12,059 nucleotides of DNA, taken from positions 1 through 12,059 of the forward strand of contig JAGLYT010000019.1 in the NCBI GenBank assembly GCA_023132075.1, read 5' to 3'. The position numbers were made by a program, and so were the translations under genes. This document shows, piece by piece, positions 1 to 7,984 of this stretch (position 1 is the stretch's first letter; the number at the start of each line of letters is the position of its first letter). Origin of the DNA: JAGLHV01 sp023132075 [NCBI: bacterium]. GTDB taxonomy: Bacteria; CBDUZB01; JAGLHV01. The notes below the pieces were generated by a model. The model was given only the letters and a program-made list of their open reading frames with translations. It was not told where the DNA came from and made no database searches.

Positions 1-249
1 CAGTGTAAAGAACCTAAATTGCCTCATCATGTTTGTTTACATTGTGGTTTTTATAATGGTAAAGAGGTGATTAAAATAAAGGAAAAGAAGGAAAAAAAAG
101 AGAAGGACGAGAAGAAGCAAATAAAGGAAAAGAAGGAAAAAAAAGAGAAGGACGAGAAGAAGCAAATAAAGGAAAAGAAGGGAAGAAAAGAGAAGGATGA
201 GAAAAAACAAATAAAGGAAAAGAAGGAAAAAAAAGCTGAGAAGAAATAG
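1..249 (+). CDS. rpmF: 50S ribosomal protein L32, C-terminal part, with long Lys/Glu-rich tail
   Basis: This is the 3' part of the gene for ribosomal protein L32, a small zinc-binding protein of the large subunit; the start lies upstream of the window. The first visible residues contain [20 protein letters not shown], which matches the end of bacterial L32, including the second Cys-x-x-Cys pair of its zinc site and the closing G(K/R)EV(I/V). A normal L32 of about 55-60 residues stops near there. This frame continues for about 58 more residues made almost only of Lys, Glu and Asp, in 15-residue repeats of the form [15 protein letters not shown], and ends at TAG 247-249. The position directly before plsX is the usual bacterial order. 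The L32 identity is firm; the role of the tail is unknown. It could be a charged single alpha-helix or a disordered rRNA-binding tail. Confidence 0.9.
76..234 (+). repeat. 45-bp in-frame tandem repeat, about 3.5 copies, within rpmF
   Basis: Units lie at 76-120, 121-165, 166-210 and a partial unit at 211-234. Units 1 and 2 are identical base for base. Unit 3 differs at five positions, which change only two residues (Glu-Lys to Gly-Arg); the other three changes are silent. The last partial unit runs into a different ending (AEKK, stop). Each unit is 15 codons with eight Lys, four Glu and one Asp, a net charge of about +3. The perfect match of units 1 and 2 suggests recent duplication. Unequal crossing over or slippage would change copy number without breaking the frame. 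Confidence 0.95.
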
Positions 250-273
250 GAAGAGTTTTTTTGGAGGAATTAA

Positions 274-1293
274 ATGTGGATTGCAGTTGATGCTATGGGT
301 GGGGATAATGCTCCGGATACGATAATAAATGGTGTGGTGCAGGCTTGTAAGGAATACGGATACAAGATAATTTTGGTAGGTGATGAAGGGATAATAAGGA
401 GAAAATTAAAACAATTTGATGTTTCAGGGTTAGAGTTGGAAATTGTTCATGCTTCGCAAGTTGTGACCATGGATGATGCTCCTGCTCATGCTTGCCGGCA
501 AAAAAAAGATTCTTCCATTATGGTGGCTTTACGATTGCTTAAAGAAGGAAAAGCAAATGCGTGCGTTTCTGCCGGTAATTCTGGTGCAATAATGGCTGCA
601 AGTTTAATGCATTTAAAAAGGTTACCCGGGGTAAATCGTCCGGCGATTGCTTCCATAATGCCTACCAAAAAAGGGATGTGCACTTTAATTGATGTCGGTG
701 CAAATGTTGATTGTAAAGCTAAAAACTTACTACAGTTTGCGATTATGGGTAGTGTTTATTTTAAGGATATTTTCGGGGTTGATTCTCCGAGAGTGGGTCT
801 ACTGAATATCGGAGAAGAATCCACCAAAGGTGACGAACTTAGGGTAGAGGCTTTTAGTTTACTTCAAAAAAGCAATTTAAATTTTGTTGGTAACTTAGAG
901 GGGAAAGATCTTCTCCAGGGAAAAGCCGATGTAGTAATATGTGACGGTTTTGTAGGCAATATAATTTTAAAGCTTGGAGAAGGCGTAGCTGAAATGATGT
1001 TGACCTTGATTAAAGAAGAAATCAATAAAAAAACATTATGGAGGATAGCTGCATATTCATTAAAAAGAGTGTTTAAAAATGTGAAAAAGAGAATCAATTA
1101 TGAAGAATACGGAGGAGCTCCTTTATTAGGAGTTAGCGGACTTTCTGTTATTTGTCATGGAAGTTCCAGTCATAAAGCAATTAAAAATGCAATTAAAGTG
1201 GCTGCGGAATTAATTTCTAAAAGTATTAATCAGGAGATTTGTACCCAAATTAATAAATATAATGGTGAAGAAAATTGTATAAAGCAAGAATAG
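274..1293 (+). CDS. plsX: Phosphate acyltransferase PlsX
   Basis: PlsX converts acyl-ACP and phosphate to acyl-phosphate, the acyl donor for the glycerol-3-phosphate acyltransferase PlsY in phospholipid synthesis. It is a peripheral membrane enzyme. The 339 residues match the family length. Visible family motifs are AVDAMGGDNAP (4-14), VSAGNSGA (98-105), LIDVGANVD (138-146), NIGEESTKG (178-186), CDGFVGNI (223-230), YGGAPLLGV (279-287) and HGSSS (295-299). The ATG at 274 has a GGAGG at 263-267 with a 6-nt spacer and lies 24 nt after the rpmF stop, so the two genes are probably co-transcribed. Its 3' end overlaps fabH by 19 nt. I see no promoter in the short gap upstream. Nothing is unusual except a short polar C-terminal tail after the last conserved block. 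Confidence 0.97.
   Translation: MWIAVDAMGGDNAPDTIINGVVQACKEYGYKIILVGDEGIIRRKLKQFDVSGLELEIVHASQVVTMDDAPAHACRQKKDSSIMVALRLLKEGKANACVSAGNSGAIMAASLMHLKRLPGVNRPAIASIMPTKKGMCTLIDVGANVDCKAKNLLQFAIMGSVYFKDIFGVDSPRVGLLNIGEESTKGDELRVEAFSLLQKSNLNFVGNLEGKDLLQGKADVVICDGFVGNIILKLGEGVAEMMLTLIKEEINKKTLWRIAAYSLKRVFKNVKKRINYEEYGGAPLLGVSGLSVICHGSSSHKAIKNAIKVAAELISKSINQEICTQINKYNGEENCIKQE
1264..1268 (+). promoter_or_regulatory. Ribosome binding site deciding the TTG start of fabH
   Basis: GGTGA inside the end of plsX sits 6 nt before the TTG at 1275. In the fabH frame an in-frame TGA occupies 1266-1268, so no earlier start is possible, and the next in-frame ATG is about 25 codons into the conserved protein. This makes TTG the start. 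Confidence 0.7.
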
Positions 1294-2255
1294 TCGGTAC
1301 CGGTTCTTATTTACCGGAAAGAGTTTTAAATAACTCTGATTTAGAAAAAATGGTAGATACTAATGACGAATGGATTGTTAGTAGGACCGGTATTAGAGAA
1401 AGAAGAATAGCCGCAGATAATCAGGCGACCAGTGATCTGGCTTTAGAGGCAAGTAAAGAAGCTTTAGCGAGTGCCGGTATTAAACCGGAAGAAATAGAAT
1501 TGCTGGTTGTTGCTACGATTACCCCTGATATGCTTTTTCCATCTACCGCTTGTATCCTTCAGGCTAAATTAGGGGCCAAAAAGGCTGTTTGTTTTGATTT
1601 AAATGCCGCCTGTACCGGATTTATTTATGCTCTTTCTTGTGTTAAACAATATTTGGAGATGGGAACTTATAAGACAGCTCTGGTTGTTGCTGCTGAAACA
1701 CTTTCCAAGGTTACTGACTGGCAGGACAGAAATACTTGTGTTTTGTTCGGTGATGGGGCTGGTGCTGCAGTATTGCGTAGAGAGCAGACGGAAAGAGGAG
1801 TTATGGGGGTATACTTGAATTCTAATGGGAACTATGCAGAGCTTCTAAATATGCCTGCGGGTGGTTCAAAGATACCTGCAACGGAGAATACGGTAAGGGA
1901 AAGACTTCATTTTTTAAAAATGAAAGGGAATGAAGTTTTTAAAATTGCTGTCCAATCAATGGTTAAATCTGCGAATGAAGCAGTGAGAGTAAACAACTTG
2001 ACCTGGGATGATGTTAAATTTATTATTCCTCATCAGGCTAATACCAGGATAATTAATGCCGTAGCAAAAAGGGTTGGAGTTCCTATAGAAAAGGTTTTTT
2101 TTAATATCCATAAATATGGAAATATGTCGGCGGCGACTACTGCCGTGGGATTAGATGAAGTGGTTAAGAAAAAAGGTGTAAAAAAAGGTGATATTTTAGA
2201 GTTGGTGGCTTTTGGAGCAGGTTTTACCAGTGGAGCTTGTATAATTCGTTGGTAA
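1275..2255 (+). CDS. fabH: Beta-ketoacyl-ACP synthase III FabH
   Basis: FabH starts each round of type II fatty-acid synthesis by condensing a short acyl-CoA primer with malonyl-ACP. The 326 residues match the family. The thiolase-fold triad is present: Cys113 in AACTG, His253 in IPHQAN and Asn283 in YGNMSAAT. Other family blocks are the N-terminal GTGSYLPE (8-15), DEWIVSRTGIRER (31-43) and the C-terminal AFGAGFTSGA (312-321). Translation begins at a TTG that overlaps the end of plsX by 19 nt, which suggests translational coupling. Primer choice (acetyl-CoA or branched acyl-CoA) cannot be read with confidence from the sequence. The nearby 2-oxoacid:ferredoxin oxidoreductase would be a possible source of branched primers, but that is inference. 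Confidence 0.97.
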   Translation: MYKARIVGTGSYLPERVLNNSDLEKMVDTNDEWIVSRTGIRERRIAADNQATSDLALEASKEALASAGIKPEEIELLVVATITPDMLFPSTACILQAKLGAKKAVCFDLNAACTGFIYALSCVKQYLEMGTYKTALVVAAETLSKVTDWQDRNTCVLFGDGAGAAVLRREQTERGVMGVYLNSNGNYAELLNMPAGGSKIPATENTVRERLHFLKMKGNEVFKIAVQSMVKSANEAVRVNNLTWDDVKFIIPHQANTRIINAVAKRVGVPIEKVFFNIHKYGNMSAATTAVGLDEVVKKKGVKKGDILELVAFGAGFTSGACIIRW

Positions 2256-7850: not shown

Positions 7851-7984
7851 TAAAGACAGTTGAAAGACAAAGACAAAAAAATAAATACTAAATTCGAAAT
7901 TCGAAATTCGAAATACTAAACAAAGTCAAAATACGAAATACAAAATTCAAAACAAGGACTAAAGACAAAGATAAAGACAAAGAA
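7851..7984 (+). repeat. A-rich intergenic patch of short degenerate repeats
   Basis: The 161-nt gap between the acyl-CoA dehydrogenase gene and etfB is largely built from short A-rich words. AAATTCG occurs three times in perfect tandem at 7890-7910, flanked on both sides by AAATACT. Looser copies follow (AAATACG, AAATAC, AAAATTC). Words of the AAAGACA type recur at both ends (about 7852-7876 and 7961-7982). The plus strand here has almost no G-C-rich segment and no open frame of note. No hairpin terminator or good promoter is visible. The etfB ribosome binding site (7994-8001) follows directly. Confidence 0.75.

Follow-up and report, generated by a model that had tools for sequence, protein, structure and literature searches.

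A tandem-repeat, lysine- and glutamate-rich C-terminal tail on ribosomal protein bL32 in a repeat-rich bacterial genus

Introduction

Core ribosomal proteins are usually taken to be nearly fixed in length, and a bL32 gene (rpmF) whose reading frame runs far beyond the conserved core departs from this and raises the question of whether the additional residues are a genuine part of the protein and, if so, whether they are kept by selection or simply tolerated. Such a gene opens the window, the whole stretch of DNA analysed here, which comprises 12,059 bases and is an entire contig of the source genome G000 (1.87 Mb, 389 contigs, 86.7% complete). We conclude that the tail is real, in frame, common to the genus and lengthened by tandem duplication. 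A tail that keeps its charge whilst its repeats are rebuilt, taken together with an extension of S10 in a sister species, constitutes a natural test of what ribosomal terminal extensions do and of how low-complexity repeats enter essential machines; if neutral, the tail is a clear case of length change tolerated by the ribosome.

Identity of the gene at the contig start

The window begins with 82 codons (1-249) in a frame that is open at its 5' end and closed by a TAG stop at 247-249 (Table 1). Residues 1-25 matched positions 31-55 of 56 in Pfam Ribosomal_L32p (PF01783; E 5.8e-10) and positions 32-56 of 56 in TIGR01031 rpmF_bact, with scores, for this C-terminal half only, of 39.6 bits against a cut-off of 21.3 (Pfam) and 38.7 bits against 22.6 (NCBIfam). 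Besides this core, the window protein shares with bL32 the zinc-ribbon cysteines and a place before plsX and fabH, the order rpmF-plsX-fabH being the usual one. The contig start truncates rpmF, a point absent from the earlier note on this locus: base 1 of the window corresponds to base 94 of rpmF in the sister genome G002, and the N-terminal basic half (PKR-HSKSR...), seen in the sister gene, lies beyond the contig. Assuming a start as in G002, the full window L32 would be 113 aa. Neither the missing 5' part nor another L32 piece was found elsewhere in the G000 assembly, and a search of a plasmid collection with window positions 1-1300 gave no match.

Table 1. Features at the start of the window.
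Feature	Position	Strand	Basis and remarks
rpmF (bL32), 3' part only	1..249	+	ORF, profile matches; ~31 codons beyond contig start
L32 core end: last three zinc-ribbon cysteines and GKEVIK	1..75	+	Pfam PF01783 positions 31-55
Tail unit 1, 15 residues	76..120	+	Tandem Repeats Finder, codon reading
Tail unit 2, DNA identical to unit 1	121..165	+	Unit comparison
Tail unit 3, differing from unit 1 at five bases (three silent; transitions throughout)	166..210	+	Unit comparison
Tail unit 4, partial (12 codons), then stop TAG	211..249	+	Unit comparison
GGAGG, Shine-Dalgarno-like, before plsX	263..267	+	Read in sequence
plsX	274..1293	+	TIGR00182, 382.4 bits vs cut-off 243.4; homologues in 3/3 genomes of genus
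fabH	1275..2255	+	TIGR00747, 421.6 bits vs cut-off 292.1

Structure and composition of the repeat tail

Positions 76-246 encode a tail of 57 residues organised as 15-residue (45-bp) units, amounting to 3.8 copies by codons, and Tandem Repeats Finder reported an array at 74-235 with a period of 45, 3.6 copies, 94% matches and a score of 289, along with a nested 9-bp period. The earlier note, which had proposed a 45-bp unit in about 3.5 copies, was thus borne out, and its claim that the frame continues past GKEVI for about 58 residues holds for the extension itself, the exact count being 57. Unit-by-unit DNA comparison also upheld the identity of two units and the three silent changes out of five in unit 3. 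Its use of those silent changes as a sign of selection fails: all five are transitions, about one third of which would be expected to be silent, and the probability of at least three of five is 0.21. When the first unit of the sister gene was added, silent changes came to 7/10 (P 0.02, small sample), and the silent-change argument within the window was dropped. Taken alone, the window offers nothing that rejects neutrality.

The tail is made up of 30 Lys, 14 Glu, 4 Ile, 3 Asp, 3 Gln, 1 Gly, 1 Arg and 1 Ala, and its tract is 93% purine. The lysine codon AAG is used for 20 of the 30 lysines, whereas in 12 further window genes it accounts for 82 of 298, an excess such as copying of one segment would give. 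The longest exact direct repeat in the tail (63 bp) is below the usual read length, and the repeat copy number is therefore probably right. Since each of the two alternative forward frames of the tract contains stops, the reading frame has been kept.

Tails in the genus

The phylum was sampled with three genomes (G000, G001 and G002), all of one genus. The sister MAG G002 (JAUVLC01) carries rpmF intact in mid-contig, its 101 codons including a tail of 45 residues; this is the rpmF found in JAUVLC010000038.1 (MAG, Clostridia bacterium isolate CSMAG_496). The cold-seep catalogue that uses CSMAG names was assembled with MEGAHIT (PMC10491686). Compared with the window tail, that of G002 has nearly the same start and the end KKEKKA-KK, with a middle that is built differently and is without the 45-bp array, and the gaps in their alignment (9 and 27 nt) are in frame. 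Lysine makes up 53% of both tails (57 residues in the window, 45 in G002), and both carry a net charge of +14. The earlier note had suggested that copy number may vary between strains; between sister species, the layout of the repeat differs.

The L32 search of G001 found none, and the plsX contig of that genome ends 44 bases before plsX, where the rpmF frame reads KKEKKK-stop. Lys/Glu codons hence precede the rpmF stop in 3/3 genomes of the genus, with six codons visible in G001. A stop following GKEVI in relatives, named beforehand as evidence against the extension, was not found in the genus, for G002 continues and the last six codons of G001 end in Lys/Glu. Judged by these comparisons, the tail looks real and old, its relatives being shorter or rearranged and of the same make-up.

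Over its first 86 bp the window is identical to G002, with plsX being 88.5% identical (longest run 38) and neighbouring genes ~88-90%. A chimeric contig end was considered on the strength of this identical start and was dropped, given that the ribosomal-protein operon of G000 and G002 also has an 80-bp identical run; conservation can explain the 86-bp identity. Tandem Repeats Finder cover in the fetched stretches was ~18 kb per Mb in G000 and ~27 kb per Mb in G002, as opposed to 3.3 in control loci, these being 58 short loci of other genomes, mostly around ribosomal genes and not fully comparable.

Length of L32 across bacterial genomes

An L32 match was obtained in 376 of the 386 genomes searched, and 74 loci were read, comprising 39 chosen for long open frames among the matches listed together with 30 and five others. 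The parse covered 70 of the 74 (with two genes entering twice, as L068/L182 and L071/L180), and in these 70 loci the median number of residues after the zinc ribbon was 13.5, most falling between 10 and 16 and the longest outside the genus being 38. The corresponding values are 66 in the window, which has 57 extra C-terminal residues relative to PF01783 and TIGR01031, and 54 in G002; the four loci outside the parse (L014, L066, L077 and L092) have 13, 24, 31 and 16. The Protein Data Bank search matched 37 distinct bL32 sequences, with lengths of up to 67 aa, compared with 101 aa in the sister and an inferred 113 aa in the window, in agreement with the proposed doubling of L32 length. At four loci (L054-L057, family f95), the L32 ORFs reach 110-115 residues and carry, upstream of the usual start, a hydrophobic stretch that may be an N-terminal extension or coding sequence lying upstream in the same frame.

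Long terminal extensions of ribosomal proteins are described as common in bacteria (PMC9534751), those of Mycoplasma pneumoniae and other bacteria being mostly predicted to be disordered and some helical. The window protein likewise bears a long terminal extension on a conserved ribosomal protein, but in this case the extension is encoded by tandemly repeated DNA, the layout of which is not the same in sister species. Counted from profile position 55 of 56, its 57 residues exceed the 20 above which an extension is recognised, PMC9534751 having used alignment to E. coli instead of a profile, and a term search of the main text of that source did not return the name L32. Extended bL32 or repeat-built ribosomal-protein tails were absent from titles and abstracts among the literature matches listed, which is weak evidence of absence. 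Ribosomal-protein extensions are already known, and the repeat-built charged L32 tail is a variant of these.

Related tails in a neighbouring phylum

Loci of two further genomes, G363 and G238, have 31 residues after the zinc ribbon and a tail that starts EVIKIK-KKEK like that of the window. K/E-rich L32 ends were present in 5/5 genomes of the G363 phylum, four of them having 31 residues beyond the zinc ribbon and the fifth 19; the phylum was picked because two members had similar tails, so that the other three count as new cases. The window tail shares with these their K/E-richness and, in most members, the EVIKIK-KKEK start, but theirs are shorter, the zinc ribbon being followed by 19-31 residues where the window has 66, and a 15-residue protein unit is not visible in them. 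In a PlsX tree of 28 rows, its root set for drawing only, the G363 phylum joined the genus of the window with support of 90/89, which lies below the tool's mark for firm support, and the grouping of the two is suggestive. A short Lys/Glu tail was probably present in their common ancestor, whilst Lys/Glu tails, being easily made from purine-rich repeats, could also have arisen twice.

In the tails of this neighbouring phylum, pN/pS was low (0.18-0.33). Transition bias on K/E codons lowers this value, hence it was not used alone, and a neutral simulation that keeps transition and transversion counts took its place. Over the last 25 residues, fewer amino-acid changes than in the simulation were found in 6/6 pairs of the four genomes with 31 residues, with P<=0.015 in four and 0.14 and 0.40 in the others, the six pairs sharing sequences and being non-independent. 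By the same simulation, the L32 core in this phylum is far more constrained than the tail. It is these tails, outside the window, that are the better support for selection, and mild selection is likely on the short K/E tail, less surely on the full length.

Predicted helix and charge pattern

AlphaFold2 tends toward long helices for charged low-complexity sequence and repeats. The helix prediction that the earlier note had proposed as a check returned one long helix in both tails: for G002 L32, from a three-row alignment, a single helix at 54-100 with tail blocks at pLDDT 71-83 (whole model 73.4, pTM 0.31), and for the window fragment, from a single sequence, a single helix at 20-81 with blocks at 96-97 over residues 31-80. 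The suggestion that Lys and Glu are spaced at i/i+3/i+4 stood in part, as the window tail has more opposite-charge pairs at i+4 than shuffled sequences do (24 versus 17.5, P 0.018) but is strongly depleted of them at i+3 (7 versus 17.9), the depletion arising because glutamate often recurs every third residue. Enrichment at i+3 and i+4 combined was absent from the window tail, the G002 tail and the S10 extension described below (P 0.83, 0.96 and 0.99, respectively), so that opposite charges are not enriched at both spacings as expected of a single alpha-helix. Single alpha-helix (charged ER/K) domains are Lys/Glu-rich and form a long helix. The window tail resembles them in this richness, in its long predicted helix and in its opposite charges at i+4, but differs in the depletion at i+3 and in its large excess of lysine (30 K, 14 E and 3 D).

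An N-terminal extension of S10 in the sister genome

The S10 gene of G002 (L099:161-715, contig C160) encodes 89 Lys/Glu-rich residues before the Pfam domain (90-184 of 185), an extension built from a 72-bp unit in 2.4 copies, and AGGTGG precedes its ATG. When 709 ORFs of at least 60 residues, from the fetched 28% of G002, were ranked by their richest 40-residue K+E stretch, L32 came first (0.78) and S10 was tied second (0.70) with a TPR protein; the ranking is suggestive, given that L32 was the starting finding and that the S10 operon had been fetched for L22. S10 was not found in the G000 and G001 assemblies, and the extension is thus documented from one genome. Overall, S10 was matched in 130 of 135 genomes, 129 of them outside the genus; among the nine long ORFs (141-230 aa) read out of these 129, a K/E extension was absent from all nine, and the stretch preceding the core resembles sequence upstream of a normal start. 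Other ribosomal proteins in the G002 S10 operon are of roughly usual lengths, with S3 and S13 slightly longer. We regard it as doubtful that several ribosomal proteins of this lineage, L32 (at the C-terminus) and S10 (at the N-terminus) at the least, bear long basic tandem-repeat Lys/Glu helices as protruding charged arms of fast-evolving length and kept charge, arms that might, for example, link one ribosome to another or anchor ribosomes to RNA or the membrane.

Origin and possible role of the tail

We favour, with a probability of about 55%, the reading that this is a real bL32 with a basic, helix-prone C-terminal arm, in which an ancestral short tail under mild constraint was lengthened in the genus by duplication and acts through its charge near the tunnel exit. 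The ancestral tail would have been mildly constrained in the G363 phylum, with selection probably acting on composition. In the repeat-rich genus, in-frame duplication of purine-rich units, of 45 bp in the window or shorter in the sister, would then have lengthened and rebuilt it, exact tail length and repeat layout being nearly free. The region of bL32 is close to the tunnel exit, and the contact residues given next are presumably from Thermus structures. bL32 touches bL17 through residues 43, 52 and 55 and uL22 through residues 47-48 (PMC4881015), and in E. coli it adjoins uL22, a protein sited on the solvent side (PMC11723945). Given these contacts, the tail would start by bL17 and uL22, and the arm most likely exits beside them on the solvent side of the 50S, near the tunnel exit. 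There its net charge of +14 could act on nearby rRNA or on factors at the exit; such charge contact is the most likely mechanism, if there is any.

A quite possible, though less probable, account holds that the tail is a neutral low-complexity end, produced when slippage and unequal duplication acted in a genome rich in repeats and in AT, harmless and without function on a ribosome that accommodates basic ends, whether disordered or helical. The nested 9-bp and 45-bp periods, the nearly pure purine tract, the AAG excess, the high tandem-repeat cover of the genomes (variable intergenic arrays included) and the non-significant silent changes within the window are all as it would predict. Against it, Lys/Glu codons persist before the rpmF stop in all three genomes whilst PlsX protein identity drops to 79-91%, the G363-phylum tails show fewer amino-acid changes than neutral, and stops interrupt the tract in the two alternative forward frames. 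The arm reading has also to be set against two explanations that we consider very improbable. The tract might act as mRNA, its purine-rich, AAGGA-dense sequence aiding plsX translation or holding ribosomes, and indeed it contains 10 AAGGA motifs and the plsX start lies 24 bases past the rpmF stop; AAGGA is, however, a consequence of AAG-GAA codons, the DNA layout has changed whilst amino-acid composition is similar, and the S10 of G002 has a similar extension at its N-terminus, without a nearby following start site. That the array is an assembly artefact, whether through gain or collapse of repeat copies or through a chimeric contig end, could be argued from the position of rpmF at the contig start, from its 86 bp identical to G002 beside the more divergent plsX and from the missing 5' part in its own assembly, yet the 80-bp stretch shared without a mismatch by the ribosomal-protein operons of G000 and G002, the intact mid-contig tail of G002 itself and a longest exact repeat of 63 bp all weigh against this.

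Other tandem repeats in the genus

Intergenic short tandem repeats (AAATTCG and others) occur at window positions 7863-7983, before the electron-transfer-flavoprotein beta gene, and different repeats occupy this site in G002. The latter genome also contains large ORFs with long internal tandem repeats, some of them TPR-like by eye, at L165:14678-16609, L127:1748-4514 and L124:16973-18718, in keeping with its general richness in repeats.
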